The notes under the pieces are model-generated. The model ran no database searches, was not told the DNA's origin, and worked only from the letters and a program-made list of their open reading frames with translations. Shown here piece after piece: positions 7,519-46,187 of a DNA stretch of 64,000 bases. The translations under genes and the position numbers were made by a program. The stretch covers positions 1-64,000 of the forward strand of contig NZ_MDCB01000001.1 in the NCBI RefSeq assembly GCF_002939705.1, read 5' to 3'. Position 1 is the stretch's first letter. Each line of letters opens with the position of its first letter. Origin of the DNA: Xanthomonas albilineans (GTDB lineage: Bacteria; Pseudomonadota; Gammaproteobacteria; Xanthomonadales; Xanthomonadaceae).

Positions 7519-8024
7519 GCGCGGGTGCCGTTGCCCCTGTCCATGCCTGCATTGGCTTAGGTGGCAACCTCGGCGACGCTGTGGCGACACTACGCGCGGG
7601 ATTGGCCGCATTGGACACGCTGCCGCAAACGCGCCTGCTATGTGCCTCGCAGTTGTACCGAAGCCCAGCCTGGGGCAATCAGGCGCAGCCGGATTTCATC
7701 AATGCCGCCGCGCTGGTGTCAACCGGGCTATCGGCTTCGGCGTTATTGCAGGCTCTGCTTGCGTTGGAAACCCGGCATGGCCGGCAGCGCCATCCGGCCG
7801 AGCGCTGGGGGCCGCGTACCCTGGACTTGGATCTGTTGCTGTACGCTGAGGCGGTGATCGACCTTCCTGGGCTGCAGGTGCCGCATCCGTTCCTGCACGC
7901 GCGTGGTTTCGCGCTGCTGCCGCTGGCCGAGATCGCTGCCGGGGTGACGATTCCCGGCCATGGCACGGTGCGCGAAGCATGCGAGCGCATCGACACCAGC
8001 GCAATCGTGCCAATCGGTAGATAA
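7515..8024 (+). CDS. folK: 2-amino-4-hydroxy-6-hydroxymethyldihydropteridine pyrophosphokinase
   Basis: A 169-residue folate enzyme transferring pyrophosphate from ATP to 6-hydroxymethyl-7,8-dihydropterin. It shows the family features [10 protein letters not shown] near the N-terminus, [20 protein letters not shown], and [10 protein letters not shown] with the metal-binding Asp pair. It starts at a GTG overlapping the pcnB stop (GTGA), indicating translational coupling, and ends 31 bases before panB. Confidence 0.93.
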
Positions 8025-8055
8025 TGGTCGGCTCATTACCGCCGCACATGAGCTT

Positions 8056-8874
8056 ATGAGCAGCCACGCCGACAGCAAGCCCTGGACCGTTCCCGCCCTG
8101 GCCGATGCCAAGCGCCGCCAGCAGAAGCTGGTGATGTTGACGGCCTACGATGCCGGCTTCGCCCGCGTGTTCGACGCCAGTGGCGTGGACATGATCCTGA
8201 TCGGCGATTCGCTGGGCATGGTGGTGCAGGGCCACGATTCGACCCTTCCTGTCAGTGTGGACGATATCGCCTACCACACCGCGGCGGTGGCGCGGGTGTT
8301 GCAACGGGCGCTGCTGGTCGCCGACCTGCCGTTCCAGTCCGATGCCACGCCCGAACGTGCCTTGGATGCGGCGACACGGCTGTTGCAGGCCGGGGCGGAA
8401 ATGGTCAAGTTGGAAGGTGCCGGTTACAAGCTCGAGGTGATCCGTTTCCTTAGCGAACGCGATATCCCGGTCTGCGCGCATCTGGGGCTGACCCCGCAAT
8501 CGGTGTTGACCTTCGGCGGTTATAAGGTACAGGGCCGCGAGGCCGCCGCCGCCGCCAAACTGCGCGAGGATGCCAACGCCGTGGCTGCCGCCGGCGCCGC
8601 GCTGGTGGTGCTGGAATGCGTGCCGTCGCCGCTGGCCGCACGCATCACCGCCGAGCTGACCATTCCCACGATCGGCATCGGCGCCGGCCCCGGGTGCGAC
8701 GGCCAGGTGTTGGTGATGCACGACTTTCTCGGTCTGGACAGCGGTCACCGCCGTCCGCGCTTCGTCAAGGATTTCCTGGCCGAAGGCGGCTCTGTCGCCG
8801 GTGCGGCGCGCGCGTATGCCGAGGCGGTACGCGCCGGGACTTTCCCCGACGCCGAACACGCCTACGCCCAATGA
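8056..8874 (+). CDS. panB: 3-methyl-2-oxobutanoate hydroxymethyltransferase
   Basis: Transfers a hydroxymethyl group from methylene-tetrahydrofolate to ketoisovalerate, giving ketopantoate for coenzyme A synthesis. Its 272 residues include [32 protein letters not shown], the catalytic Glu in HLGLTPQSV and the [14 protein letters not shown] loop. The ATG at 8056 gives the usual family length. The stop overlaps the panC start (ATGA). Confidence 0.96.
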
Positions 8875-9710
8875 TCCAGACCATCACCGAACTGGCGAGC
8901 TTGCGAGCGGTCGTCAGTGATTGGAAGCGGCAGGGCCTGCGCGTGGCCTTTGTCCCGACCATGGGCAATCTGCACCCGGGGCATTTCTCGCTGGTGACCT
9001 TGGCCCGGCAGCAGGCCGACCGCGTGGTGTCCAGCGTGTTCGTCAATCCGACCCAGTTCGGGCCAAACGAGGACTTCACCCGCTACCCGCGCACGCCCGA
9101 GGCCGACACCAGCGGGCTGTACCAAGCCGGTTGCGACGTACTGTGGCTGCCGACCGTGGAGAGCATGTATCCCTTGGGCGTGGAGCTGGCCTTGCGTATG
9201 CATACCCCGGGTGTGAGCGAGGTGCTGGAAGGCGCGTGCCGTCCCGGTCATTTCGATGGCGTCTGCACGGTGGTCGCGCGTCTGTTCAACCAGGTGCAGC
9301 CTGACTTGGCCGTGTTCGGCAAAAAGGATTATCAACAACTGGCGGTGATCCGGCAGATGGTCGCCGACCTCGCATTCCCGATCCAGATCATCGGCGGGGC
9401 CATCGTGCGCGATGCCGACGGCCTGGCGATGAGCTCGCGTAACCAGTATCTGTCCGCCGAGGAGCGGCCGCGCGCGGCGCACATCCACCGCACCCTGCAG
9501 GCGATGCGCGAGGGCCATCTGGCCGGGCTTGCGCGCGCGCAGGTGGAGGCGGCGGCGGCCGCGCAGTTGCAGGCGGTTGGTTTCGAGGTGGATTACACGG
9601 TGCTGCGCCGGCCCGACCTGAGCGAACCGCAGGATCGGGCCGGCCCGCGCGTGGCGCTGATCGCCGCGCGCCTGGGGCGGACCCGGTTGATCGACAACCT
9701 GGAGTTCTGA
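8871..9710 (+). CDS. panC: Pantothenate synthetase
   Basis: Condenses pantoate and beta-alanine using ATP. The 279-residue protein carries the adenylate-forming motifs [16 protein letters not shown] and [15 protein letters not shown], then [12 protein letters not shown] and MSSRNQYLS. It is translationally coupled to panB by a 4-base overlap. panD follows 95 bases later with its own leader. Confidence 0.96.
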
Positions 9711-9805
9711 GCCGTTGGCCGCCAGGCTACTGCGGCGAGGAGCGGACGCCGCCGCACCCCTCGACTGCTAAACTGCACGCCTTTCCTGACCGCAGTGCCG
9801 TCCGC

Positions 9806-10186
9806 ATGCAACTGAGCCTGTTGAAAACCAAGATCCATCGCGCCACCGTCACCCATTCCGAACTCAACTACGAAGGATCGGTCGCGATCGACGGACTGCT
9901 GCTGGATGCCACCGGGATTCGCGAGTTCGAGCAGGTGCATATCTGGGACGTCACCAACGGCGCGCGCCTGAGCACCTACGCGATCCGTGCCGACGAGGGT
10001 AGTGGCATCATCTCGCTCAACGGTGGCGCGGCACGCCATGTGCAGGTCGGCGATCTCGTCATCATCGCTGCCTTCGCCAGCATGAGCGAGGAAGAGGCCG
10101 CGCGCTTCCAGCCGACTCTGGTGTACGTGGACGGCAACAACGCGATTACTCACACCAACCACAGCATTCCAAAGCAGGCCGCATGA
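9806..10186 (+). CDS. panD: Aspartate 1-decarboxylase (pyruvoyl)
   Basis: Makes beta-alanine from aspartate for pantothenate. The 126-residue proenzyme has the self-cleavage site Gly24-Ser25 in NYEGSVAID; Ser25 becomes the pyruvoyl cofactor. [14 protein letters not shown] and the [14 protein letters not shown] region match the family. The stop overlaps the pgi ATG, so the two genes are coupled. Confidence 0.96.
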
Positions 10187-11697
10187 CACAGTCCACCGGT
10201 TTCGACGCACTGCTCTCCCACGCCCAGCGCCTGCGCGGGGCGCGCCTTCCCGAACTGCTCGCGGCCGAACCTGGCCGTGCCGATGCCTTGGCCCTGCAGG
10301 TCGGGCCGCTGTACTTCAATTTCGCCCGGCAAAAATACGACCGCGCGGCGCTGCAGGCGTTGTTGGCGCTGGCTGCCGAGCACGATGTCGCCGGTGCGTT
10401 CCAGCGCCTGTTCCGCGGTGAAACGGTCAATGTCACCGAGGGCCGCGCCGCGTTGCACACGGCCTTGCGCGGCGATCTCACCGATGCGGCGGTGGCCAGC
10501 CAGGCGCACGCCAGCGCGCGCCAGGTGCAGCAGCGCATGAGTGCGCTGATTGCCGCGTTGGCCCAGACCGAGGTCACCGACATCGTCAGCGTCGGCATCG
10601 GCGGTTCCGACCTGGGGCCGCGTCTGGTCGCCGATGCGTTGCGTCCGGTCAGCGGCGCTCGCTTCCGTGTGCATTTCGTGTCCAACGTGGACGGCGCGGC
10701 GATGCAGCGCACGCTTGCCACGCTGGACCCGGCGCGTACCGCCGGCGTGCTGATTTCCAAGACCTTTGGTACGCAGGAAACCCTGCTCAACGGGCAAATC
10801 CTGCGTGATTGGCTCGGTGGCAGCGAGCGCCTGTACGCGGTCAGTGCCAATCCCGAGCGTGCGGCCAAGGCGTTCGACATCGCCGCCGGACGCGTGCTGC
10901 CGATGTGGGATTGGGTCGGTGGCCGCTATTCGTTGTGGTCGGCGGTTGGTTTCCCCATCGCGCTGGCGATCGGTGCCGATGCGTTCGAGCAATTGCTGGC
11001 CGGCGCGGCGCAGTTCGACGATCACGCCTTGAACGCGCCGTTGCAGCAGAACGTGGCGGTACTGCATGCCTTGACCACGCTGTGGAACCGCAACGTGCTC
11101 GGTCATGCGACGCAGGCGGTGATGACCTACGACCAGCGGCTGGCATTGTTGCCGGCGTATCTGCAGCAGTTGGTGATGGAGAGCCTGGGCAAGCGCGTGC
11201 GTCTGGACGGCAGTTCGGTCCAGTCCGACACCGTGCCGGTGTGGTGGGGCGGTGCGGGGACCGATGTGCAGCACAGCTTCTTCCAGGCGCTGCACCAGGG
11301 CACCAGCATCGTGCCGGCCGACTTCATCGGCTGCGTGCGCAGCGACGACCCGTATACCGTCAACCACCAAGCCTTGCTGGCCAACCTGCTGGCGCAGACC
11401 GAGGCGCTGGCCAACGGGCAGGGCAGCGACGATCCGGCCCGCGACTACCCCGGTGGCCGTCCGAGCACGCTGATCCTGCTTGATGCGTTGACCCCGCAAG
11501 CGTTGGGTGCGCTGATCGCGATGTACGAACACAGCGTGTACGTGCAATCGGTGATCTGGGGGATCAACGCGTTCGACCAGTTCGGCGTGGAACTAGGCAA
11601 GCAGTTGGCCAGCCAATTGTTGCCGGCGTTGCAAGGCAAAGCCACCGAGGTCGCCGACCCGGTGACACGCGCGGTGCTAGCGCGCTTGCGCGGCTGA
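10183..11697 (+). CDS. pgi: Glucose-6-phosphate isomerase
   Basis: Interconverts glucose 6-phosphate and fructose 6-phosphate in the cytoplasm. The 504-residue protein has the sugar-phosphate site [21 protein letters not shown], the catalytic Glu in [10 protein letters not shown], the His in [12 protein letters not shown] and the C-terminal Lys region [13 protein letters not shown]. It overlaps panD by four bases and is followed by a terminator-like hairpin. Confidence 0.96.
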
Positions 11698-33736: not shown

Positions 33737-35269
33737 TCACAGGTCGAATTTGATGCCCTGTGCTAGCGGCAGTGAATCGGAGTAATTGATGGTGTTGGTC
33801 TGCCGGCGCATGTACACCTTCCACGCGTCCGAGCCGGACTCGCGGCCGCCGCCGGTGTCCTTCTCGCCGCCGAAGGCGCCGCCGATCTCGGCGCCGGAGG
33901 TGCCGATGTTGACGTTGGCGATGCCGCAGTCGCTGCCGGCCGCAGACAGGAAGGTCTCTGCCGCTTTCAGATTTTGGGTGAAGATCGAGGAAGACAGCCC
34001 TTGCGGCACGCCGTTCTGCATGTCGATGGCTTCCTGGAGGGTGGTGTATTTCATCACGTACAGGATCGGGGCGAAGGTTTCGTGCTGCACGATGGCGTCG
34101 GTGTTCTTCAGTCCGCTGACGATCGTCGGCAGCACGAAGTTGCCAGGACGCTCCAGTGCGGTGCCGCCGGTTTCGATGGTGCCACCGGCGGCCTTGGCCT
34201 TGGCGATCGACGCCAGGAATTGTGTGACCGCGCTGCGGCTGTTCAACGGCCCCATCAGATTCGCAGGGTCTGTCGGGTCGCCGATCTTGCCTTCGACCTG
34301 TTTGTACGCCTTGACCAGCGTTGCCAGTACGGTGTCGTAAATAGCGGCATGCACGATCAATCGACGTGTGCTGGTGCAGCGCTGACCGGCGGTACCGACC
34401 GCACCGAATACGATGGCCGGGATCGCCAACTTCAAGTCTGCACTCTCATCGAGAATGATCGCGTTGTTGCCGCCCAGTTCCAGCAGGCAGCGGCCCAGCC
34501 GCCGCGCGCACGTCTCGGCGACGCGGCGCCCGACCTGGGTGGAGCCGGTGAAGCTGATCAGCGGGACGCGGCTGTCCTCGACCAGGCGTTCGGATAGCGC
34601 CGTGCCGGCGTCGTTGATCAGGAAGAAGATGTCCGGGAAGCCGGCATTGCGCAGTGCCGCGTTGCAGATCTTCATCGAGGCGATCGCGGTCAGGGGCGTT
34701 TTATTGGATGGCTTCCAGATGCAGATGTCGCCGCAGATCGCTGCCAGGAAGGCGTTCCAGCTCCACACCGCAACCGGGAAGTTGAATGCGCTGATGATGC
34801 CGACCAAGCCGAGCGGTTGGTACTGTTCGTACATACGGTGGCCGGGACGCTCCGAATGCAGCGTGTAGCCGTACAGCATGCGGCTTTGCCCGACCGCGAA
34901 GTCGGCGATGTCGATCATTTCCTGCACTTCGCCGTCGCCTTCGGGCTTGCTCTTGCCCATCTCCAGCGCGACCAGCGACCCCAGTGAGTCCTTGTGCGCA
35001 CGCAGCGCTTCGCCGCACAGTCGCACCGCCTCGCCGCGGCGCGGGGCCGGCGTGCTGCGCCACAGCTTGAACGCGGCTTGCGCACGGGCGATCACGGTCT
35101 CGTAGTCCGCGTCTGTGGTCGCCTGTACTTCGGCGATGAGCGCATTGCTGGATGGATTCAACGGTTGCAGTATGCCGGCGCCTGTGGCGCTGGACCACTC
35201 GCCGTTGCCGAGATAGGTGCCGGCGTTGGATGCGGCCAGGCCGAGCGCCTTCAGCAAATCAGCGGACAT
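33737..35269 (-). CDS. amaB: Aldehyde dehydrogenase, ALDH7 type (aminoadipate semialdehyde dehydrogenase)
   Basis: NAD-dependent oxidation of alpha-aminoadipate semialdehyde in lysine breakdown is the usual role of this subfamily. The 510-residue protein has [37 protein letters not shown], the catalytic Glu in [10 protein letters not shown] and the nucleophile Cys in [13 protein letters not shown]. The ATG at 35269 matches family length. It is transcribed alone, and the island begins just upstream of it. Confidence 0.88.
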
Positions 35270-35460
35270 GGAATCTCCTGGAAAATCGAGGCGACAGGGA
35301 CGGCAACTGTAAGCGTGGAGCGCGAGGTGTGACCAAATTGTCATTTTAGCAGACTGGGCTTAGCCGCCCCGTTTCGGCTTGCTCGGCGTGTGGCACGCTC
35401 AAAAAGCGATGGCCATGCCTTATAAGACCCTTGTAGTGGTCTACGGACGGCCTATCGCAC

Positions 35461-35930
35461 ATGTCTGCAAGCGCGCTCCAAACGCTGCGAGAGTTGTATC
35501 CGCAGCGCTACGCACATCGGTCCGAAGAAGTGGCCCATGTGCTTCGTGGTCAGAGCACCAGGGGCGTCGTGCAGCGCGTTCGCGAAGGGGATGCAGTCAG
35601 GGCGCTACCCATTGGCCCGCAAGATCGACGGATTGATCCAGATGCCGCTTGAAGCGTTGGCCGAGATCTTGGATCCAGCGCCAGCGACTCAGCCGGTCAC
35701 CCCGCCATCACCCCACCATCACCCCTTCATCCTCGCGGCGACGATCCGCCATTGGGTCGCGTTTGAGCTTCGTGCGTGCGGCAGGCTTCTGGGAGCAAGT
35801 GATGGGGGTCATTGGCGAGCAGGAATTGGCCGATGAGCTGGCTGAGGTCGCGGCGCGAGTGCTGAGAGAGCTTCGCTATGGGGAAGCGAAGGCTAGGGCG
35901 AGTCGTCAGCGTGATAACCTCTCCGTCTAA
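35461..35930 (+). pseudogene. Frameshifted remnant of a small phage-like or mobile-element protein
   Basis: One protein can be followed through three frames. It runs from MSASALQTLRELYPQRYAH to VVQRVREG, then RYPLARKIDGLIQMPLEAL in the next frame, then RAAGFWEQVMGVIGEQELADEL to the stop. The breaks fall near 35590 and 35785. Each segment has natural composition, so a decayed gene is more likely than three chance frames. No family is recognised; its small size and position suggest a phage or integrative-element origin. Confidence 0.6.
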
Positions 35931-36415
35931 GGAGGGAGATCGACCCTTCTTTGATTTCCGGGCGGTTTGCAGTTTCTTTCTAGCAGCTCGCGAAGCAACA
36001 CCCAGTAGCTTGCTTAATCTCAGCGGCACATGCGCGAACGATGAAGAATGAGCTCGTGCGCTTGCAAGCAGCCGGCTCGTATCTGCTGCGCGGGGCACAT
36101 GGGGTGAGGAAGTCTCGTTAGACTTTCGCTTGCTGCGATGGTCGAGTCGTGCCGCGAAGTCTCACTGTTCTCGCTTGGATCCATTTCGGTTGACGGACCG
36201 GTCGAAGGTCAGGCTGCCTCCATTTGCCACCCATGCTTACTCGGAATCTTGGAATAGAAGTCTCGGCGCTTAGCTGTGCTCTATTTCACTCGCGTGTGGA
36301 CTATGGCCACGGTTCCGTTCCTTGCAGGATTGACAGCCACTGCCTGTGCAAGCATTCTTCCGCTAGATGGCATTCGCGTTATCTGAATAGGCGTGCACAT
36401 GGAGGTGATTACTTG
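35931..36415. other. 485-base gap upstream of the XRE gene
   Basis: No convincing gene. The minus-strand frame across 35727-36098 overlaps the remnant and looks like a shadow. The region probably holds the promoter of the XRE gene, but no clear elements were seen. Confidence 0.5.
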
Positions 36416-36757
36416 ATGGCTTCAATCGCAGAACGCATCCGCTTAGCCCGCAATGATCGAGGCCTCTCTCAAACGGAACTATCAAGACTCCTTGGCGTCA
36501 ATCGCGCAACGGTTGGACACTGGGAAAGTGGCGAAAGCTTTGCGCCCAACCTTCAACATCTTCATTCGCTTAGTCTTGTACTGGAAGTCACGATCGACTG
36601 GCTCACCAGTGGTGATGAAGAAGCATCCCGAGCGGCTTCTCCGAACACTTCAAGATCTCATCTCGAAGGCAGAATGCTCGACCTCTCTAAGCACCTTCCC
36701 GTTTCATTCCTGGCCAGTGTTGTCGCGCTGTTGGAGAAAGCTGAGTTCTATCTCTAA
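36416..36757 (+). CDS. XRE-family transcriptional regulator upstream of the RiPP-like operon
   Basis: A 113-residue protein with an N-terminal helix-turn-helix: ERIRLARNDRGLSQTELSRL, then VNRATVGHWESGESF, then IDWLTSGDEE, as in Cro/CI-type repressors. The C-terminal 45 residues (LEGRMLDLSKHLPVSFLASV) have no known family. The ATG at 36416 follows GGAGGTG at 36401-36407, a strong ribosome site. It lies 151 bases before the first precursor gene on the same strand, so control of that operon is plausible; an inherited phage repressor is the alternative. Confidence 0.82.
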   Translation: MASIAERIRLARNDRGLSQTELSRLLGVNRATVGHWESGESFAPNLQHLHSLSLVLEVTIDWLTSGDEEASRAASPNTSRSHLEGRMLDLSKHLPVSFLASVVALLEKAEFYL

Positions 36758-36813
36758 GGCGAGCCGATGTGGTGCTTCTGTCGCTGCTGTGCGCAGCACA
36801 GCAAGGGGTTTGA

Positions 36814-36840
36814 TTGACACTTCCAACTGGCTTTACATTA
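36814..36840 (+). promoter_or_regulatory. Candidate promoter of the RiPP-like operon
   Basis: A consensus -35 TTGACA (36814-36819) lies in the gap before the first precursor gene. The -10 is weak; TACATT (36834-36839) is closer than the ideal spacing. This fits a regulated promoter but is only a candidate. Confidence 0.35.
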
Positions 36841-36908
36841 GGGGGGCGAGTGAGGCCGAAGTCAAAGGGTTTCATCGCATAACCCTCAATGTCAAAGGAA
36901 GGAATGAA

Positions 36909-37205
36909 ATGAGCAAGAGCATCACCAACAAGGCGATCTCGTCCTTGGCCCTGATCATCGCCGGTGCAGCCGGGTCGGCCTCAGCTTCGGAAGCGCCCTC
37001 GGTCGCTACTCACAATCTCGAATCGTCTACGGCAATCAATGCCGATCTCGACAGTCTGCGCATGGCTGAGTTCGCTTCACCCGAGTCGCTTCTGGCCGCC
37101 GCAGATGGTCACCATTCTGATTCGATTGGCTCGCATCATCACCACACCATTGCCAGCACAGATGGCGTGAAAGTGGCTGACACAGCCTCGCGCTTCGATG
37201 TTTGA
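36909..37205 (+). CDS. RiPP-like precursor peptide 1 (signal-type leader, His-rich block)
   Basis: A 98-residue peptide. Residues 5-26 form a hydrophobic, Sec-like leader ending in an Ala-Ser-Ala site (GSASA). After a variable stretch come RMAEF, then LLAAADGHHSDSIGSHHHH at 61-79, then TIAS, a spacer and the C-terminus RFDV. The ribosome site AAAGGAAGGA is strong. A paralogue follows directly and shares the leader type, MxEF, the His block and RFDV. It lies upstream of a putative peptide-modifying enzyme, a methyltransferase and permeases. The function and the modified residues are inferred; the His/Asp block could bind metal. Confidence 0.82.
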   Translation: MSKSITNKAISSLALIIAGAAGSASASEAPSVATHNLESSTAINADLDSLRMAEFASPESLLAAADGHHSDSIGSHHHHTIASTDGVKVADTASRFDV

Positions 37206-37246
37206 TTGTTCGCTGCCATTTTTCATTAAAGGACCAATCGCTCGCT

Positions 37247-37558
37247 ATGAATGACCATCGCAATCTCACCAAAACCCTCTCCGCGCTGACATTGCTCGTT
37301 GTGGGCTCAACCGCAGGCGTTGCCATGGCTGGAATGAATGCGGACCCGAGCGCCAACGCTGCGCTTGAAACCGCTGTGTCGTTGACCTCACTTAACGATC
37401 TGGCGATGGATGAGTTCGACCAAGCTGCAAGGGCCAACAATCTTTTGGTCGCCGCTGATGGCCATCACGACGACTCCATCGGCTCGCATCACCATCATGC
37501 CATCGCCTCGGCAACGACGGCCTATCGCGAGGCCGAATCGGGTCGCTTCGACGTTTAA
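37247..37558 (+). CDS. RiPP-like precursor peptide 2 (paralogue)
   Basis: A 103-residue paralogue of the preceding peptide. The hydrophobic leader (TLSALTLLVVGSTAGVAMA) has a signal-peptidase-like AMA end near residue 28. It has MDEF at 54-57, AADGHHDDSIGSHHHH at 69-84, AIAS, and the C-terminus RFDV. Within the 20-codon block shared with peptide 1, 18 amino acids agree but 12 of those use different codons, so the protein sequence has been selectively kept. It starts 41 bases after peptide 1 at an ATG behind AAAGGA. Confidence 0.82.
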   Translation: MNDHRNLTKTLSALTLLVVGSTAGVAMAGMNADPSANAALETAVSLTSLNDLAMDEFDQAARANNLLVAADGHHDDSIGSHHHHAIASATTAYREAESGRFDV

Positions 37559-37570
37559 TTTCAGCGTGAT

Positions 37571-37599
37571 CGCCGAGGGGGCATGGGGTCCCCTCGGCG
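37571..37599 (+). terminator. Hairpin between precursor genes and modification genes
   Basis: A perfect 10-bp stem, CGCCGAGGGG (37571-37580) with CCCCTCGGCG (37590-37599), and a 9-base loop. It has no T-run, so partial termination or 3'-end stabilisation of the precursor mRNA is likelier than full termination. This would let the peptides be made in excess over the enzymes. Confidence 0.6.
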
Positions 37600-37630
37600 T
37601 GAGTCAAGACTGCTCAGGGAGTGAGGTGCT

Positions 37631-38872
37631 ATGAATGCTGTATTGGATAGCCAAAGCGTTGAAATTAGTCGTCCACTTTGCCTCATGGAACTCACCACGG
37701 CGTCTGTTCATACCGATGAGGTGATGGAGGGCATCATGTGGGCGCGGTTGAACCGCATGCGCATGCGTCTCCAGGAGGTGTTGAAGGGGCGAGGTGCCGA
37801 AACTTTTCTCGAAGCGATCTATCAGCTTTATATATCTATTCCGCCAGACCGCCAGGCGCGTCTGCTTCTAAGCTCAGAATTTTGCGAATGCTACCTGGCC
37901 ATTGAAGCTGCACAGCGCAAAATCAGCACTGGAAGGTCTGATCAACAAGATGTCTGGGAATTGGCGCGAAATTTTTCGCTTCTCTACGACCTGGTTTGTC
38001 GCGAACATGCCATTGACGAGCTGAGCAAAGGTCGTGTGAGCAAGTATCTGGCTGAGTCGCGCCAGTGGCAGGTTTACAGTCCCCTTGGTGACACTTATGC
38101 CAATCGATCAAGTGCGGGCAGCTGGAATCTTGAGAAGGTTCCAAGTGTGGGTGAGTGCATTGCGGTTGACTTTGATAGTCCCGTTGCTACGAACTACGAG
38201 CCGCGATCAGGTGTGCTAAGTCAGGCCTACTTGCCGCTCGACGATTCCGAACGCAGTGCGGTGCGCACGAAAATCGCCGAAAGTCTGCGTTTGATCGACG
38301 AATCGGAGCCGCTTTATGGCTTGATCATCCGGAATTTCGTCAGGCGCATCGTTGTGCGCAAGTCGCAAGAGCGATCTGATCAAGGCCCTAAGCACTACGG
38401 GTCCGAGCATGTTCCACGGCAGCCCGGTTCGCTCAGACTACTCAACATCCATCGGGATGAACTCAGCGTCGAAGCGTGCATGGAGAGCTTAATGCACGAG
38501 AGCACGCATAATTTCCTCGCTGCTTGGGAGATTGCTCACGGCTTTTTCGTCGCCAACGACTACAAGCATCGCGTAGTTTCTCCTTGGTCTGGAAATCAGA
38601 TCCCGAATTCCTCGTTCATTCACGCGGTCTTTGTTTACTACATCTGCCACCGTCTTCTGAGAAGTCATCTGGCAAGATCAAAGGACCTTGCTGAAAGTGC
38701 GGTTGCACATGTCCACAAGCGATTGGCAGTTTGTGCGTCGGGATTTCTCATTCAGCAACCTCTGAGCCAGCGCCTGATGTCCACGGCACCGCTAAACTAC
38801 GACATTGGCAGCATGGTCGACATGATGCAGTCAGACATGCAGCGCCAATACGGATATGAGGCAGCGGTATGA
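37631..38872 (+). CDS. HExxH-motif protein, putative peptide beta-hydroxylase
   Basis: A 413-residue cytoplasmic protein without signal peptide. Its C-terminal half has H289-E-S-T-H293 in SLMHESTHNFLAAWE, followed about 40 residues later by SPWSGNQIPNSSFIHAVFVYY. That arrangement of HExxH, Pro/Gly-rich loop and a downstream His resembles the HEXXH-motif putative peptide-modification family, some members of which are 2-oxoglutarate-dependent peptide beta-hydroxylases. A zinc protease is the alternative. The N-terminal half (about 250 residues) is unassigned and may bind the leader. It starts 72 bases after the precursors and overlaps the next gene by four bases. Confidence 0.75.
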   Translation: MNAVLDSQSVEISRPLCLMELTTASVHTDEVMEGIMWARLNRMRMRLQEVLKGRGAETFLEAIYQLYISIPPDRQARLLLSSEFCECYLAIEAAQRKISTGRSDQQDVWELARNFSLLYDLVCREHAIDELSKGRVSKYLAESRQWQVYSPLGDTYANRSSAGSWNLEKVPSVGECIAVDFDSPVATNYEPRSGVLSQAYLPLDDSERSAVRTKIAESLRLIDESEPLYGLIIRNFVRRIVVRKSQERSDQGPKHYGSEHVPRQPGSLRLLNIHRDELSVEACMESLMHESTHNFLAAWEIAHGFFVANDYKHRVVSPWSGNQIPNSSFIHAVFVYYICHRLLRSHLARSKDLAESAVAHVHKRLAVCASGFLIQQPLSQRLMSTAPLNYDIGSMVDMMQSDMQRQYGYEAAV

Positions 38873-39750
38873 ACGCAAGGACTGTCGTGCTTTACTCAGA
38901 TCGGAACGACCCGGTTGCATTGAAGGCACTCGATAAGGCGAGCGCAGAGATTGCTTGCATCCATGTTGACCAGTTGATTCCGCTCTTGGGCCGCCAAGAT
39001 TGGCCCAAGGTGCTCGACATGACGACAACAGCGGATATCGAAGCAGTGTTTTCGGGCGCTAAAATCATCAACCGTGCCTTCACCCTATCTGGCACTGAGC
39101 TTTCATCTTGCTTGTCCGCCTGGGGCGTCGATGAGTGCTGGTTTCATATCCGCTTACAAGATCTATTGAAGCTTGGAAGAAGCGTATCGTATGACACCGG
39201 AGTTAGAGGCGTGTCGCGCTCGCTGCTCCCGCTGAACGCGCAATGGTTTGAGATGAGGCGCTCTTTGCCTGATCTGCTAACTCCCGCTTTCGAGTATGGC
39301 TTTGGCTACGAGCATCCTGACATCTCAGCTTTGGCGTCTCCGTTGCAAAAATCGGTGTGGTCGCTCTTCGATTGGAAAGTGGAACGACAGTTGAGTCCTG
39401 ATGAGGCCAAGCGACATCAGTTCTTCGTGGAGGCCCCGCGTGGCGTGCCATTGATCGCTTATTTTGCGGGGGATGCTTTGGAGGTACTTTGGCCCCGAGA
39501 GCGCGTAGGTGTGGACCTTGGGCAGGTCAGGGAAGTGGTTGGCGCTGCCAGACGCGTTTTCTGTGCTGAGGCTGGTGAAGTGCTGCTCTATGCAGAAGAC
39601 CAAGCGTTGCGCTTTTATGCGTTTTCACCCCATCTACTCTCGGTGGCAGAAGAGCCCACATTCCAAGTGATGCTGAGCAATTGGCTGTTGCCCCCTCATT
39701 TTGACGCTGTAAGGAGCCTCGCCGATGCTGCGCCTCGGATCATCCATTGA
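38869..39750 (+). CDS. Unrecognised 293-residue protein of the RiPP-like operon
   Basis: A soluble protein with no signal peptide or clear catalytic motif. The first 40 residues (TVVLYSDRNDPVALKALDKA, then IACIHVDQLI) look like a Rossmann-type start, as in the pre-ATP domain of ATP-grasp peptide ligases; KIINRAF and FFVEAPRGVPLIAYFAGDAL recall parts of that fold. The glycine-rich and metal sites of a true ATP-grasp were not found, so this is only a hint. It overlaps the HExxH gene by 4 bases and the methyltransferase by 26, so it belongs to the operon. Confidence 0.7.
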   Translation: MNARTVVLYSDRNDPVALKALDKASAEIACIHVDQLIPLLGRQDWPKVLDMTTTADIEAVFSGAKIINRAFTLSGTELSSCLSAWGVDECWFHIRLQDLLKLGRSVSYDTGVRGVSRSLLPLNAQWFEMRRSLPDLLTPAFEYGFGYEHPDISALASPLQKSVWSLFDWKVERQLSPDEAKRHQFFVEAPRGVPLIAYFAGDALEVLWPRERVGVDLGQVREVVGAARRVFCAEAGEVLLYAEDQALRFYAFSPHLLSVAEEPTFQVMLSNWLLPPHFDAVRSLADAAPRIIH

Positions 39751-40519
39751 GCAGCTTCTTCGAATTCGGGAGGAGATGGGTTGGCTTTACGGAAGCGAAG
39801 ATCTCTGCGTATTGCTTTACAGCTTGGTCAAGCGAGAAAAGCCGGCCATGGTCGTGGAGCTTGGAACAGGGCTGGGGGTTTCTACGGCTTGGATAGCGGC
39901 CGCGATGAAGGAGGCCGGAAGGGGTGTTTTGCACACCTATGACAACGGGTCTCATTACATCAGTGAGCCTTCAAAGAAGTTCCTCAGTGGTCTGTCTGAA
40001 CCCCTGAACTCGTTTGCAAACCTGCGAGATGGCTTGGATGGCTTCAATGCCTTCATCGGAAGTTTGCTGTCGTGGGTGGGGGCGGAGGAGCATGTGGTTG
40101 TTCACCTGGGCGATATCGCGATGGGTGAAGTGGCATCGGATGATGCGTTTCAATCGGGGGTCGACATGGTGTTCTCGGACTTCAATCACTCGCCTGAGAG
40201 CATCCAGGCGTTGCTTGGCGCTTTTCTTCCGGTCATGCGGGAGACCTCGTCTATTTTCATTGATAGCGCTTCAACGCATCGGCTGAGCTACCTGGCACTT
40301 GAAAAGATTGTGGAGCATCTTAACCAGGGGCGATTGCCCGCAGGGCTCACCAAGGGGCTGGATGAGCTTGGCGTTCAGCACCTCGAAACAAGGGTGAGGC
40401 GCTCGTCGTTTCGCCTCATGCACCTGACCGAAACGAGCGATCGCGCTCAAAACAGCACTGCCTGGGTGAGGATCGAGCCCATCGATATTCAGGCAGCGGG
40501 TGTGAAATTTTTCCACTAG
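39725..40519 (+). CDS. SAM-dependent methyltransferase of the RiPP-like operon
   Basis: A 264-residue class I methyltransferase. Motif I is MVVELGTGLGVSTAWIAAAM, motif II region is LHTYDNGSHY, and VDMVFSDFNHSPESI is the acidic strand-4 motif. The layout matches the Methyltransf_24/O-methyltransferase group. Its substrate is presumably the precursor peptide, for instance a carboxylate, hydroxyl or imidazole, but this is inferred only from the operon. The start lies within the preceding gene; its stop directly abuts the first permease ATG. Confidence 0.8.
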   Translation: MLRLGSSIEQLLRIREEMGWLYGSEDLCVLLYSLVKREKPAMVVELGTGLGVSTAWIAAAMKEAGRGVLHTYDNGSHYISEPSKKFLSGLSEPLNSFANLRDGLDGFNAFIGSLLSWVGAEEHVVVHLGDIAMGEVASDDAFQSGVDMVFSDFNHSPESIQALLGAFLPVMRETSSIFIDSASTHRLSYLALEKIVEHLNQGRLPAGLTKGLDELGVQHLETRVRRSSFRLMHLTETSDRAQNSTAWVRIEPIDIQAAGVKFFH

Positions 40520-41839
40520 ATGCAGGGTGCAATGTTTAGCTACTACCTGACTTTGGCAAAGCAAAACATCTTGGCGTCAAAGGTGATGACCCTGGCGCTG
40601 GCGGTTGCACTTGCTTTGGGTGTTGGTGCAAGCATGACAATGCTCACGGTAGTTCGGGTGCTGTCATGGGACCCCATGCCAGGTCGCAGCACTCACTTGT
40701 TTCACCCCTACTTCGATCCTTTGCCTCGCTCTTATGAAGCGAAAGCCTCGCTCGATCCCCGCAACTCAGTGAGTTGGGTCGATGCCAAAGAGATCATGCG
40801 CAGACTTCCGGCACCGTCGAGCGCTGCCATGGCCACAGGTCACCTGCTTGTGGCGGCACAGAATGGGGTAGATGCGCCATTTTTTGTTGATGGCCAGTAT
40901 GCAACCCCCGACATTTTTGGCATGTTTGGGATTGATCTGATCCAGGGTAGATCTTGGACCGAAGACGAGGAGCTGTCACGAGCTGCGCTAGTGGTGATCA
41001 GTGAGTCTTTTAGAAAACGCCTCGGGCAAGCGGGTGAAGTCGGAAAAATCCTGCAATTGGGTTCAAAAGCGTTTCGCATCGTGGGCATTTCGCGCAACTG
41101 GGCACCGATGCCGCGCTTCCACACTGATCTGCAAAAGGATACTTTCAGGGGGCAAGACGATTTCTTCATTCCCCTCCACACAGCAATTGACGACAGGCTC
41201 AGTGTCAGTTCGAGCATGTTCTCGTGGGAGCAGGGCGAGGAGTCCAATAAGATGGAAAGCCCCTCAACCGCTTGGTTGCAATTTTGGGTCTATCTTGAAG
41301 ATCGGGCCGCGCAACAACGCTATGCGGAGCAGCTCCAAAGCTATGTGGAGCAGCAAGCAAATAGTGGCCGCTTTGAGCGGCGCAGCCCAGCTCGCTTGGA
41401 AGGGCTTGAAGCTTTTCTGATCCGGCGTCAGGTGGTGCCAGATGATGTGAAGCTCCAATTGGCATTGGCCATTGGCTTCTTGATTGTCTGCATGGTCAAC
41501 ATCTGCGCGCTGCTCTTTTCACGTTTCATTCGGCGAACCCATGAAGTGGCGGTGCGACGGGCGCTGGGGGCTCGCAGGATCGATATCTTGGCGCAGCTTT
41601 GCACCGAAGCGCTCCTGATCGGGGTGCTCGGAGGGCTAGGCGCACTGGTCGTCTGTCAAGTTGGGCTATCGGTGGTTAGAGCGCAGCCGGAAGACTACGC
41701 GGCGTTAGCGCACCTGGATCCGACCATGGTGGCAGCAACCTTGGCTTTCGCCTGCCTATCGAGCCTCGCCGCTGCCGCGCTACCGGCCTTCCGAACCGCT
41801 TCTGGTCGAACAGCCATGCAAATCAAGGTTGCAGAATGA
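40520..41839 (+). CDS. FtsX/MacB-type ABC permease 1
   Basis: A 439-residue inner-membrane protein with the four-helix MacB/FtsX plan: TM1 at about 20-45, a large periplasmic domain (about 50-300, including RIVGISRNWAPMP as in MacB_PCD), then three C-terminal helices with the RFIRRTHEVAVRRALGARRI coupling motif. No ATP-binding domain is fused or encoded nearby. The ATG at 40532 (MFSYYL) is an alternative start. It is paired with a second permease, as in heterodimeric FtsX-type exporters. Confidence 0.88.
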   Translation: MQGAMFSYYLTLAKQNILASKVMTLALAVALALGVGASMTMLTVVRVLSWDPMPGRSTHLFHPYFDPLPRSYEAKASLDPRNSVSWVDAKEIMRRLPAPSSAAMATGHLLVAAQNGVDAPFFVDGQYATPDIFGMFGIDLIQGRSWTEDEELSRAALVVISESFRKRLGQAGEVGKILQLGSKAFRIVGISRNWAPMPRFHTDLQKDTFRGQDDFFIPLHTAIDDRLSVSSSMFSWEQGEESNKMESPSTAWLQFWVYLEDRAAQQRYAEQLQSYVEQQANSGRFERRSPARLEGLEAFLIRRQVVPDDVKLQLALAIGFLIVCMVNICALLFSRFIRRTHEVAVRRALGARRIDILAQLCTEALLIGVLGGLGALVVCQVGLSVVRAQPEDYAALAHLDPTMVAATLAFACLSSLAAAALPAFRTASGRTAMQIKVAE

Positions 41840-43083
41840 GCATCTCTGAGATCCCGGTCATTGCGCGCAGCCTCAGACGGCATCGGTTTATTTCTGCTAT
41901 TTTTCTCTTGCAGATCATCATCACCACGGCGGTCATTAGCAATGTTTCCTCATTGCTGGCTGATCGGGTTGAACTTCTGACCTACCAGACAGGACTGGGT
42001 GAAGGGGGGCTTGGCATTGTCGAGACCGAGTTCCTCGGTGAAGGAAGCGATGACGCACGGCCCAAGGTGCTTGCTGATTTGCAGCGCATTCGCGAGGTGC
42101 CAGGAGTTCAAAATGTCGCCGCCGTTGAAGCGCTGCCATTGAGTCAAAACAACTGGACCGTTGGCATCACCAACAAGCTTCCAGACCGAAACGATCTTCG
42201 CGGTGTGATTGAAGCAGAGCCATCCGTTTATAGCGTTTCACCCGGTGCACTGCAAACGCTTGGCATCGCACTTTCGGCTGGACGCGATTTCTCGCCTGAT
42301 GCCTATGTTCCCATGGTCGCGAGCAATGACTACTCAGGGCTTTATGACGCGGGTGAGGTCATCATCTCAAAGGCCTTAGCGCAGGCGCTGTTTCCAGGAG
42401 AGAGTGCGCTTGGTAGGGCGATCTTTGTCGATGGCAAGCATCCGGTTCACATCGTAGGCGTTGCTGACCATTTGTCCCGCCCGCTTCTGGGAAGCGGTCA
42501 AGGCAATGATGTGTCGATGCTCTTGCCGTTGGTTCCGGATGCCAAGCGTGTGATTTATGCTATCCGAAGTGACCCCGATCGATTGAACAGTGTGCTGAGC
42601 GATGCAGAGGCAGGGATCCGAGCCCTGGATCGAAATCGAATGACTCCTCGGGTCATGAGCTACGAGGCGCTTCGCCACGGCTACTTCCGGCGTGATCGAA
42701 TGATGGCTTACCTCTTTCTCGCAGCTGGCGCCTCATTAGTGGTAGTCACTGGGATTGGAGTCTACGGCTTGGTGAGCTTTTGGGTTCGCCAGCGCTACCG
42801 ATACATCGGGATTCGTCGATCGCTGGGCGCGCGCTCCATCGACATCAGTCGGTATTTCATGACGGAGAACATGCTTTTAACGGTCGTGGGTGCGGGAGTC
42901 GGGAGCGGTCTGGCGGCGGCATTGAGCATGTGGGTCTCCGCTCACTACGGTGCCCCGAAGCTGCCTGGCGCATTCCTCATCGCTGGCTTTGTTTTGGTTT
43001 GCGCGCTTGGTCAGCTTGCCGCCTGGCTCCCTGCTCGCAAGGCAGCAAAGACTGCGCCCGTGGTCACGATGAGATCCGTATAG
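41836..43083 (+). CDS. FtsX/MacB-type ABC permease 2
   Basis: A 415-residue partner of the preceding permease, overlapping it by four bases. It has TM1 near 20-40, a periplasmic domain with VHIVGVADHLSRP, and three C-terminal helices including RQRYRYIGIRRSLGARSID as the ATPase-coupling motif. No MacA-like adaptor, ATPase or outer-membrane channel follows, so the transporter must borrow these from elsewhere. It ends the operon. Confidence 0.88.
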   Translation: MSISEIPVIARSLRRHRFISAIFLLQIIITTAVISNVSSLLADRVELLTYQTGLGEGGLGIVETEFLGEGSDDARPKVLADLQRIREVPGVQNVAAVEALPLSQNNWTVGITNKLPDRNDLRGVIEAEPSVYSVSPGALQTLGIALSAGRDFSPDAYVPMVASNDYSGLYDAGEVIISKALAQALFPGESALGRAIFVDGKHPVHIVGVADHLSRPLLGSGQGNDVSMLLPLVPDAKRVIYAIRSDPDRLNSVLSDAEAGIRALDRNRMTPRVMSYEALRHGYFRRDRMMAYLFLAAGASLVVVTGIGVYGLVSFWVRQRYRYIGIRRSLGARSIDISRYFMTENMLLTVVGAGVGSGLAAALSMWVSAHYGAPKLPGAFLIAGFVLVCALGQLAAWLPARKAAKTAPVVTMRSV

Positions 43084-43330
43084 AAAGCGTTATAGTGTTT
43101 ATTTAGTCAGGATTGATGACTAAATGTGATCTTATGATCTTTAGTTATTTTCAATTATCGCTAACCAGAAATTAGTTGCGAGATGTGAGACACCGTCCCA
43201 GGGACTCGCGCGGCAGCAATCCTCTCCGAAGCGCAAATGCATGCGAACGAGCGGGGAGGTGCAGTGCTTTTTTGGGGCGCCTTGACGAATGCCCCGACTG
43301 CCTTAGCCTGGATGTTCACAAAGGAGACAT
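43084..43330. other. Gap after the RiPP-like operon
   Basis: The first 90 bases are AT-rich and could hold a promoter or the operon's end, without a clear terminator. A strong ribosome site (AAAGGAGACAT) directly precedes the next gene. Confidence 0.4.
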
Positions 43331-43600
43331 ATGAACGGAGAAAGCAAAGCGTTAATCCAAGCGGCGATGCACATTAAAGACCATGCGGCCATCATCCAAC
43401 TGGTCCAGGCGGCGGAAGATCCATCGCGCTTTGCATGGGAGATCTTGGATCTGGCGGTCGAAGCCAGGGACGAGCCGCTCGTCGATGCTTTGCTCCCGCA
43501 CTTGAACAGCGTCTCGCATAGTTATCCTCTCATTCGGGCAGTGCAGCGCGGAACAGCATCGATTTTGAAGAAGCTGATCCGTTTGACCGAGCCGAACCTA
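43331..43600 (+). pseudogene. Ankyrin-like protein truncated by an IS element
   Basis: The first 90 residues read like helix-turn-helix repeats of an ankyrin type (KDHAAIIQLVQAAEDPS, VEARDEPLVDALLPHLN, YPLIRAVQRGTASILKKLI). The frame then runs into the terminal sequence of an IS5-type element at about 43601 and stops at 43648 with foreign residues. The start is intact, with a strong ribosome site. The rest of the gene is missing from the other side of the IS fragment. Confidence 0.6.
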
Positions 43601-43981
43601 GAGCGTGTTATGAACTTTGAAGTAGAGATGCCGCATTTCCGAGCATGAGGATGGTGAAAACGACGAAGTGAAGTCCTGCCAGTGTTTCAGGCAAGCGTTC
43701 GTCGTCACGGGCCAAGCTTCGGAACCGATTGAGCCAACCGAAACTGCGTTCCACGACCCAGCGATGCGGCAGCAGCACAAAGCCCTTCTTGGCCTCCGGC
43801 AGCTTCACGAAGTGCAGTTCGATGCCTTCCTCCCGCGCAGCTTCGGCCGGGTCTTTGCCGGTGTAGCCTTGATCGACGAAGGCGAGCTTCACCGTTTCGC
43901 CGGTGACATACTGGACTTCCTGCGCCAGCGAGCGCACCTGGGCCCGCTCCTGCTCGTTGGCCGGCGTGACCTGCCGACGCC
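43601..43981 (-). mobile_element. IS5-family element fragment (3' part)
   Basis: The element end is taken as GAGCGTGTTATGAACTTT at 43601, preceded by CTA, a possible TNA target. On the minus strand the transposase C-terminus is readable from [19 protein letters not shown] to the stop at 43608, including [17 protein letters not shown] and [19 protein letters not shown], typical of the DDE domain of IS5-group transposases. The similarity breaks at about 43981, so the 5' two thirds and the other terminal repeat are gone. It cannot move by itself. Confidence 0.85.
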
Positions 43982-43989
43982 TTCATCCC

Positions 43990-44378
43990 CCGTTAAAACG
44001 AGCATAATACTTTCAGCTTTGATAACAAGCTGTATGATGCACGAAACGAATATAACACGAGCACTTTCCAATTCATCCCGCAGAGGTCTGGGAAATACCA
44101 GATGGGCGCATCAGCCTACTTCGCACCAAGTACTGAGTCGCAGCATCCTGATGCTGTTGTATGTAAATGGCTCAGAGGCTGTGCGCATCAGTGAGGTCTC
44201 GCTGTATGGCAGCATTGCGCCAGCACCCGGTGCCGGCGGCATGAGTGGCGGAGTAACGGTTGTACAGCTATCCGCAGGCGACGTAGTCACAATCACGGCC
44301 TACTCAAACTCTGTCGGCAGCTACACCATCAAGAGCTATCCATTCGCCACATACTTCACTGCTGATCGAATTGCCTAG
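43990..44378 (+). pseudogene. Broken C1q-like domain protein (phage-type)
   Basis: Two frames join into one gC1q-like beta domain. FDNKLYDARNEYNTSTFQF and RSGKYQMGASAYFAPSTES are read in one frame from 44018. Then LYVNGSEAVRISEVSLYG to AGDVVTITAYSNSVGSYTI and YFTADRIA follow in another, with the break near 44155. The order (F-strand start, GxYxxxxS, LYVNG, LxAGDxVxI, final YFxxxxI) matches C1q domains common on phage tail proteins. The upstream part is missing at the IS boundary. Confidence 0.65.
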
Positions 44379-44462
44379 AGGCTGATCGTGCCGGGTAGGG
44401 AAACCCTGACACAATGACGCGGCGACCACTGATTGAGCCGGGGAGCCAGTCCCTGACAGCAA

Positions 44463-44486
44463 AAACCCCGCCGGAGCGGGGTTCTT
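44463..44486. terminator. Terminator-like hairpin
   Basis: AAACCCCGCC and GGAGCGGGGTT form a strong GC stem with a short loop, preceded by an A-run that acts as the T-run for the minus strand. It lies 5 bases beyond the stop of the minus-strand HTH gene. Confidence 0.75.
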
Positions 44487-44490
44487 GCTG

Positions 44491-44949
44491 TTAGACGGTC
44501 TGTTTCCAGCGACGCCCTTCTTCCTGGAAAATCATCATTTGTTCGTGATGCTCTTGATCAAGGCTGTTTAGTGTTTCAATCAGCCTACGCACATGAACAT
44601 TGTTGTTGAAGTGACCCTTAAGCAACACTCTCAGCATTCGGTCTGCAGGTCCAGAAATTTTGGCTTTTGCTTTCTCCCAAGTCGCCAAGGTCTGCACATT
44701 CACATCCAAGGCCGCAGCAAGCGCGATCTGCGACATCTGCATTTCTTTTCGCAGGAATCGAATCTCAGTGCTGGAGAGCTTGCGTGGCTTCATGGTTAGA
44801 GCAAGTGCAAGAGCCTTGTGCAGCCCATCCACGTCCTCAATTGCAACGCCATCGCCATACGGCGTCTTGTGCACGGTGAAGCCATTGCGCAGCCAAACGT
44901 TGCGCAATCCGGATTCCGTGTAGTGATACATTCCCTCGGTGTTCTTCAT
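44491..44949 (-). CDS. HTH antitoxin-like protein
   Basis: A 152-residue protein. An N-terminal part (MYHYTESGLRNVWLRNGF) precedes an XRE-type helix-turn-helix: LSSTEIRFLRKEMQMSQIAL, then LDVNVQTLATWEKAKAKI. This layout is common in antitoxins of the HigA/MqsA kind. It is encoded after the DUF4258 protein with a 4-base overlap, the usual coupling of a toxin-antitoxin pair, here toxin first. Autoregulation at the upstream palindrome is likely. Confidence 0.8.
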   Translation of the reverse strand: MKNTEGMYHYTESGLRNVWLRNGFTVHKTPYGDGVAIEDVDGLHKALALALTMKPRKLSSTEIRFLRKEMQMSQIALAAALDVNVQTLATWEKAKAKISGPADRMLRVLLKGHFNNNVHVRRLIETLNSLDQEHHEQMMIFQEEGRRWKQTV

Positions 44950-45272
44950 GATCTGCTAGCCCTGAAAGCAGTGATGACAATGTTCCTGATTCGAGAGTTG
45001 TCGATCGCTACTCCACAACCTATCGTTTCGCCGCATGAGTATCGCTCGACAGTTACCTTCCACATGCCGTAGCGATCCAAAAACGGAGACTCAACAATCC
45101 TTCCCTTCTTGAGGCAGTCAATGACCTGCGTACGCGTGATCTTTCGCTTCTTCATCTGCTTCACGGCGTGCTCCGTGAAGATGACGTTTGCGCTGTTATC
45201 GGCAATCTTCGACATCAGCCGTTTTGCGGCTGCATCGGTCAGCCGGAATGCCACCACTTTCTGCGCTGTCAT
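44946..45272 (-). CDS. DUF4258-type putative toxin
   Basis: About 108 residues. The core NVIFTEHAVKQMKKRKITRT, then VIDCLKKGRIVES and YGMWKVTVER, matches DUF4258, a small RelE/MqsR-like fold often encoded next to HTH antitoxins. A ribonuclease role is inferred. The start could be the ATG at 45272 or a GTG two codons earlier at 45278. A perfect palindrome lies about 30 bases upstream. Confidence 0.75.
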   Translation of the reverse strand: MTAQKVVAFRLTDAAAKRLMSKIADNSANVIFTEHAVKQMKKRKITRTQVIDCLKKGRIVESPFLDRYGMWKVTVERYSCGETIGCGVAIDNSRIRNIVITAFRASRS

Positions 45273-45304
45273 TGGCACCGCCTTGTTCCTAGAGGAAGAC
45301 TATA

Positions 45305-45323
45305 GCCTATAGATTGTATAGGC
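45305..45323. promoter_or_regulatory. Palindromic operator of the toxin-antitoxin-like pair
   Basis: GCCTATA (45305-45311) and TATAGGC (45317-45323) form a perfect 7-bp inverted repeat with a 5-base spacer, in an AT-rich patch of a GC-rich region. It overlaps TATACA/TATAGT-like -10 sequences on the minus strand, so binding there would block the operon's promoter. Confidence 0.6.
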
Positions 45324-45661
45324 AAGTGATCGCCGTCAAGTTCGCACTGCCGTTGGTCCGGAAGTCAGCCTTCGCCTCAAATCCCGGTCCCTGCGATGGC
45401 GCCGCCCCATCCTTGCGGCATCGGCCAAGTTCCCAGGACGCCGTCACAGACTTGAGGCTTGGCATCGTGGGTTCAGGGACAACCATCTGACTTGTTCAGC
45501 TACTTGGCCGGACGCGGCGCCATGATGGCCGCTCAACCCGCGTGGCGCCTGAGCAGCGCCTGGCCGGCACCATTAGGCAGCACTGAGCCAGTGATAGAAT
45601 GGGCCAGGGCGTCAGCACAGAAATAGCACAGCGCTTCCGATAGATGCCCTGAAAGCCTTAT
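45324..45661. other. Gap between TA-like pair and tRNA-Arg
   Basis: No coding feature is supported. Frames crossing this region and the tRNA are shadows. It may hold decayed island-end sequence and the tRNA promoter. Confidence 0.4.
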
Positions 45662-45738
45662 GGCCCCGTAGCTCAGCTGGATAGAGCGGTCCCCTCCTAA
45701 GGGACAGGTCGTGCGTTCAAATCGCGCCGGGGTCACCA
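45662..45738 (+). tRNA. tRNA-Arg (anticodon CCT)
   Basis: A 77-base cloverleaf. Acceptor GGCCCCG pairs with CGGGGTC (one G-T), the D arm is GCTC AGCTGGAT AGAGC, anticodon stem GTCCC/GGGAC encloses loop CTCCTAA, the T arm is GTGCG TTCAAAT CGCGC, and CCA is encoded. Such tRNA genes are frequent integration sites, and this one borders the island. Confidence 0.95.
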
Positions 45739-46187
45739 TCTTTTCCCTTAATGGTTTTTCTGCCCCGCTCTGTGTGGCGGGACGATGCGAATGGAGCGCA
45801 GTTTGCCGCAGTGCGCGCATGGCATCGGGTGCGCAAATGCGTGCGTGTCGTTGGCTTTCATGACCGGAGCTGCAATAACGCCAATTACACCTTGTGCCGA
45901 CGCGGTCTGAGCATCGTCTTGCCTATCCTGTGCGTGTCCGCCAATGCAGCGCCGCACCGCCTTGGCATGCGATCCCGCGTCGCTTCGATCATGGTGGACA
46001 GCACGATGGGCGGGTCGACTGCCGCCACGTGTGCCGCAGATGTCTTGCCTGCACTGCATGGCGAAGACCTGGCAAACACCGCCGATGCATCGGTGGTCCC
46101 GGCTTCGGCGAGGAATACGTCTGGTATGACCGGCCATTCCCGTGCGAGCCTCCAACCACGTGTACGAATGCGAAGCAGGAGTCACTC
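45739..46187. other. 449-base gap after tRNA-Arg
   Basis: Open frames run across this region on both strands (45751-46191 plus, 45748-46185 minus), but neither has a ribosome site or recognisable motif. The minus frame ends in a zinc-knuckle-like HPMPCAHCGKLRSIR, so it could be a remnant. No gene is called. Confidence 0.4.

Follow-up and report, generated by a model that had tools for sequence, protein, structure and literature searches.

Results

Here, we analysed a stretch of 64,000 nucleotides of Xanthomonas albilineans (RefSeq assembly GCF_002939705.1, contig NZ_MDCB01000001.1, positions 1 to 64,000; this whole stretch is referred to as the window). It harbours a gene cluster at positions 36416-43083, which probably directs the formation of a ribosomally synthesised and post-translationally modified peptide (RiPP). 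The cluster starts with a gene for an XRE-family regulator, possibly that of the cluster (36416..36757, forward strand as are all features described here; Pfam HTH_3, 3.8e-13), followed by two paralogous genes for candidate precursor peptides. Peptide 1 (36909..37205; 98 aa) has a signal-type leader with an A-x-A-type site, the core DGHHSDSIGSHHHH and a C-terminal FDV, and peptide 2 (37247..37558; 103 aa) carries the core DGHHDDSIGSHHHH and also ends in FDV. A 12-bp RNA hairpin, found by folding and background comparison (37571..37599), separates the precursor genes from a gene for a predicted alpha-ketoglutarate HExxH-type peptide oxygenase of 413 aa (37631..38872), in which HESTH occupies residues 289-293. 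Downstream of it lie genes for a protein of 293 aa with a predicted ATP-grasp fold and probably without ligase activity, termed the partner of the HExxH enzyme in the following (38869..39750), for an S-adenosylmethionine (SAM)-dependent methyltransferase (39725..40519; Methyltransf_24, Pfam 2.7e-14) and for two permeases of the FtsX/MacB type, each resembling an ADOP half with MacB_PCD and FtsX domains (40520..41839 and 41836..43083). Starting with the HExxH gene, consecutive genes overlap by 4 bases, overlap by 26 bases, abut and again overlap by 4 bases. An initial annotation of this DNA had described the same genes in this order on one strand, overlapping or abutting at every junction from the enzyme onward; open reading frames and family matches confirm the former statement, the coordinates the latter.

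Family searches of the operon proteins yielded no match for peptide 1 and the 293-aa protein, and for peptide 2 a sub-threshold match to YHYH only (E 0.0099; 16.3 bits vs 25). Both precursor peptides are under purifying selection in the comparison of the window with X. hortorum: ratios of nonsynonymous to synonymous substitution rates (dN/dS) are 0.087 for peptide 1 and 0.114 for peptide 2, next to 0.075 for the HExxH enzyme, 0.122 for the partner and 0.100 for permease 2. Since the gene order in addition recurs in other genera, the cluster is more than a chance arrangement.

For comparison, 13 distinct related loci were considered (L002, L020, L022-L030, L031 and L032; L003 and L031 are the same locus), including those of X. 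hortorum (L002), Xanthomonas sp. GPE 39 (L031/L003), Dyella caseinilytica (L025) and Frateuria sp. Soil773 (L026). A precursor-like reading frame, picked by eye, lies beside a modifying-enzyme gene in 12 of the 13, while none was recognised in L029; the RiPP-like cluster proposed initially is supported by this recurrence. Each precursor consists of a hydrophobic leader bearing an A-x-A-type site, a core that varies and a C-terminus with Phe at position -3. This C-terminus is mostly FDV or FNV, with FII, FIV, FKV, FEV, FTI and FDA also present. The core HHxDSIGSHHHH is found in Xanthomonas and Stenotrophomonas, HHVDEIHHHH in L020, HHDDDSFGQHHHH in L024, CDEDHNWLGGDHRHGC in D. caseinilytica, GDGHWHYDP in Frateuria sp. 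Soil773, CTSYSSGGTHCGHYS in L027, DETVDYTYCVGKYD in L028, poly-Gln in L030 and CTFYDNGGTHCSFYS in L032, the latter core including CTFYDNGGTHC; DYTYCVGKYD is likewise among the related cores. Because the cores differ to this extent, the His/Asp block of the window represents one variant only. Phe at -3 is present in all 32 distinct precursor sequences tabulated, 15 of which stem from clusters and 17 solely from a profile search, so that the shared tail of these 17 is partly a result of the way in which they were selected. Judged by lenient rules, a hydrophobic stretch with an A-x-A-like site occurs in 32/32 sequences, in line with the signal-type leaders noted initially, and a K/R before the hydrophobic stretch in 31/32; the sequence lacking it is a shorter call of the Frateuria peptide.

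A second core family of the approximate form C-T-x-Y-x-x-G-G-T-H-C was observed in Stenotrophomonas and Luteibacter (L027, L032, P0095-P0098, P0101-P0104), and the stretches of L027 and L032 gave no methyltransferase match. In strain GPE 39, a single precursor gene (L031:10372-10743) replaces the two of the window; the similarity skips from window position 37172 to 37513, as if the tandem genes had recombined at the shared His/Asp block.

The hairpin recurs as well. Searching the 60 bases after the precursor stop with G-T pairs allowed, and leaving out L029, in which no precursor was recognised, we found that 12 of 13 loci, the window included, have a perfect stem of 11-14 bp on the 3' side of the last precursor gene, each starting within 16 bases. 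Of about 400 random 60-mers from the same loci, 0 to 8 had a stem of that length. The stem sequences vary between genera, and the gene next to the hairpin is the methyltransferase gene in L028 and the HExxH gene elsewhere. Folding z-scores of 12 junctions, that of L028 not being among them, range from -6.1 to -0.9, with the weakest values in L023 (-0.9) and L020 (-1.1). A consensus terminator scan did not include the hairpin among terminators and no T-run was seen after it. A known RNA family was rejected as an identity of the hairpin, the sole Rfam match in 35000-46000 being a tRNA. The hairpin may act by partial termination or RNA stabilisation, giving an excess of precursor.

The predicted fold of the HExxH protein is the one characteristic of alpha-ketoglutarate HExxH-type enzymes and carries the HExxH motif, and 42 of 44 enzyme homologues match TIGR04267 at E<=0.001. 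It is hence predicted to be a peptide oxygenase of this type, and the initial assignment as a peptide modifier gains support from the oxygenase-type fold. Stand-alone alpha-ketoglutarate HExxH enzymes adjoin precursors in the pfl, pos and pes clusters (PMC12636437, PMC13060819).

Enzyme and partner are tightly linked. Of 398 genomes of the order, apparently the same draw for both searches, 10 gave the enzyme and 9 the partner, and all 9 contain both genes in adjacent position. The lone exception (G253, locus L029) has a radical SAM gene as the enzyme's neighbour. Asking for the co-occurrence that the initial annotation had suggested as a check, we found the partner in 11 of 12 enzyme-bearing genomes (the match in G173 is only partial), in addition to the precursor frames in 12 of the 13 loci mentioned above. 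In genome G484 (L028), one 724-aa frame fuses enzyme (57-434) and partner (450-706), and a second pair is present as separate genes beside the fusion. In L029 (approximately 7969-11247), the radical SAM gene (PF04055) has an HExxH-type match as its neighbour and another match close by, representing a different cluster type.

In fold comparisons of a predicted model, the nearest solved structures of the 293-aa protein are the graspetide ligases PsnB, MdnC and AMdnB. An ATP-grasp-fold protein beside a precursor, as expected of a graspetide cluster, is thus present at the level of the modelled fold. The [DE]xN motif was found at the last hairpin in 0 of 27 members of the partner family; in wider tests, E[VI]N occurred anywhere in 2/27 and [DE]xN within the last 80 residues in 3/27, while the controls were positive on both tests (RimK 9/9, MvdD-type 4/4). 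The protein left unrecognised by the initial annotation is therefore assigned a predicted ATP-grasp fold nearest to that of graspetide ligases, while neither E-x-N at the expected place nor sequence similarity to these ligases was detected; it probably lacks ligase activity. For one branch, a graspetide survey mentions ATP-grasp proteins that are truncated and inactive; the words HEXXH and FtsX are absent from its main text (PMC8939145).

In the plasmid collection, the only homologue found for the methyltransferase, with 46% identity at 94% coverage, is located near two TauD/TfdA oxygenases in a non-ribosomal peptide synthetase cluster of a Janthinobacterium plasmid (L053:4142-8760). This neighbourhood hints that a hydroxylated residue is O-methylated, and the methyltransferase possibly O-methylates the hydroxylated core. 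The gene looks interrupted in L002:10095-11064 and L031:7410-8210, where enzyme, partner and permeases were matched at full length. For the FtsX pair, no ATP-binding cassette (ABC) ATPase was found in the cluster or the fetched flanks, 13 stretches having been scanned (the window flanks and 12 relatives, L029 excluded). Three Walker-A reading frames were discarded as candidates: they encode Mg-chelatase, RsgA and an AAA-family ATPase, and none recurs between loci.

Of the 13 relatives, 11 have a tblastn match for the partner, 9 for both permeases, 7 for the methyltransferase, which is present in L025 among others, and 4 for the XRE regulator. No match for the partner was obtained in L020, where the contig ends, and in L029; the XRE homologue of L023 lies on the opposite strand. 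Relatives of the HExxH enzyme are rare, with 6/297 genomes of the family, 10/398 of the order, 5/233 of a related family (f12) and 3/398 of the phylum. The 293-aa protein has a 99%-identical counterpart on a contig of 3.79 Mb. Plasmid carriage of the cluster was rejected as no record in the plasmid collection holds it. Two Rhizobium plasmids (L060, L061), in which the partner was not searched for, carry an HExxH gene adjoining an annotated radical SAM gene, in L061 inside a conjugative transfer region. A scan of viral contigs returned one locus, L020, whose contig ends within the cluster.

The window belongs to an assembly of 3.68 Mb in 148 contigs. In 500-base windows, the GC content is 0.50-0.58 over 36.0-45.5 kb and approximately 0.62-0.67 on both flanks. 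DNA similarity to X. hortorum and GPE 39 ends at 43094-43095, where the last gene ends. Further downstream, the low-GC segment (36000-45500) also holds a reading frame that weakly matches ankyrin (43331-43648), part of a transposase gene (43608-43937) and an HTH/DUF4258 pair (44491-45278), and it is bordered by a tRNA-Arg(CCT) (45662-45738). Integration at this tRNA was discarded, since no 14-base copy of it is found elsewhere in the window. These features suggest that the segment may be mobile.

Discussion

On balance, we favour a RiPP-like cluster in which precursors with leaders for the general secretory (Sec) pathway are made in excess, hydroxylated by the HExxH oxygenase with the aid of the ATP-grasp-fold partner and released via Sec. 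The excess would be due to the hairpin that follows the last precursor gene, by which the transcript would be ended or protected. In the cytoplasm, the partner, devoid of the ligase metal motif, would bind the precursor at its leader or at the conserved C-terminal F-x-V and present the core to the HExxH enzyme, an Fe(II)/alpha-ketoglutarate oxygenase. To judge by its fold and its characterised relatives, this enzyme would beta-hydroxylate core residues, here His/Asp of HHxDSIGSHHHH. The methyltransferase, where present, might cap a hydroxyl or carboxyl group. Finally, the peptide would exit via Sec with cleavage at A-x-A, and the paired FtsX permeases may pass it on, release it or guard against it. 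For bufferins, the authors of the study propose that the signal peptide is masked by a partner protein until modification has taken place (PMC12452194), and by analogy the ATP-grasp-fold protein could do the same here.

Several observations weigh against this interpretation. The enzyme of the window scores 34 bits against TIGR04267, under the curated cut-off of 40 bits, and structural comparisons were made at the level of the fold rather than of active-site residues. In the fold comparison of the partner, other ATP-grasp families score almost as high as the graspetide ligases. In hhalign, the partner profile gave no alignment with 9 RimK and 4 MvdD-type sequences (probability 0.4% against MvdD-type), a miss that is informative because the RimK and MvdD-type profiles do find each other (97.5% probability, E 4.8e-12). 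A profile search of the PDB with the partner returned nothing at E<=10 and a Pfam search just single-member matches with E above 0.1. The ATP-grasp assignment is thus a claim about the fold only. Furthermore, L025 has no hairpin after its last precursor gene, nor does the junction between the two peptide genes of the window (z +1.1). The methyltransferase is without a match in four clusters with enzyme and partner, the permeases in two, and the signal-peptide calls come from lenient rules rather than from SignalP.

Two functions of the product may be considered. An antibacterial or competitive peptide, with the FtsX pair serving in export or self-immunity without an ATPase, would fit the low-GC segment, the patchy distribution and the varied cores with conserved leader type and tail. 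However, Xanthomonas and Stenotrophomonas have conserved the His-rich core, which a toxin that changes fast would not show, and we regard this function as conceivable rather than likely. A role as metal buffer or metallophore, in the periplasm or after secretion, in line with the metal binding suggested in the initial annotation, appears less likely again: the HHxDSIGSHHHH cores speak for it and bufferins, in the available text, are a precedent for Sec-exported, oxidatively modified metal binders (PMC12452194), but the same architecture comes with cores holding one or no His (poly-Gln in L030, CTFYDNGGTHC in L032). With CTSYSSGGTHCGHYS, poly-Gln and DYTYCVGKYD among the cores, metal binding is not supported as a general rule. 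As the core varies while leader type, tail, enzyme and partner are conserved, it may fit His-rich members, not the class.

Other explanations concern the enzymes. The partner might still be an active ligase via an altered site, yielding a graspetide-like product with ester or amide links from Asp to Ser/Thr or other neighbours, which is also hydroxylated. Its closest folds are graspetide ligases, Asp and Ser occur in the cores, and published graspetide clusters include hydroxylases according to the accessible text of PMC13097080. Yet none of the 27 partners has [DE]xN at the last hairpin, the wider motif tests separate them from both control families, and acid donors are scarce in the poly-Gln and CTSYSSGGTHC cores; we thus deem this improbable. 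The HExxH motif and the XRE gene adjoining small exported-looking peptides would also suit a metallopeptidase that trims secreted signalling peptides, like a pheromone system with an XRE regulator, which in view of the oxygenase-type fold we consider very improbable.

Returning to the hydroxylated, Sec-exported peptide, we tentatively propose, with the odds close to balanced, a distinct RiPP class with a variable core, an F-x-V-type C-terminus, a stand-alone HExxH hydroxylase and an obligate non-ligase partner resembling graspetide ligases, which recognises the substrate and perhaps delays Sec until modification. If true, secreted RiPPs would gain a class that does not involve MNIO, a peptide-ligase fold would prove able to act as recognition subunit of an oxygenase to which it is unrelated, and the range of HExxH hydroxylases would grow to include clustered His/Asp and Cys/Tyr cores. 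A general question would also become testable, namely how precursors that bear a signal are modified ahead of their uptake by Sec, and Phe at -3 together with the enzyme-partner pair would provide a handle for genome mining.

Comparison with known systems

The permeases share MacB_PCD and FtsX domains with ADOP/MacB-type permeases and correspond to ADOP halves, but are here split over two genes, with no ABC ATPase found in the scanned stretches. Graspetide ligases (PsnB, MdnC, AMdnB) are the nearest solved folds of the 293-aa protein, which differs from them in lacking E-x-N at the last hairpin and detectable sequence similarity to the 4 MvdD-type proteins. ChlB is a radical SAM-HExxH protein (ChlH domain, PDB 8s5f) acting on other precursors, whereas the window enzyme and all eight operon proteins are without a radical SAM domain and the enzyme is paired with an ATP-grasp-fold protein. 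For this pairing, we found no published description in the open-licence PMC literature, as far as its text is available; two papers join HExxH, ATP-grasp and RiPP, but the HEXXH motif of one is that of a protease (PMC13039773) and the other, by its abstract, deals with cyanophycin. The analogy to bufferins drawn initially is confined to the architecture: bufferin precursors have a Sec signal, as those of the window putatively do, and are modified by an oxidative iron enzyme (PMC12452194). It fails for the enzyme, with no MNIO (DUF692) among the eight operon proteins, and the window peptides are without Cys. The clusters pfl, pos and pes differ in having MNIO enzymes, and the terms ATP-grasp and signal peptide are absent from the main texts describing them (PMC12636437, PMC13060819), but with PflC/PosC and PesO they resemble the present cluster in having a stand-alone alpha-ketoglutarate HExxH enzyme, here a predicted one, beside a precursor.

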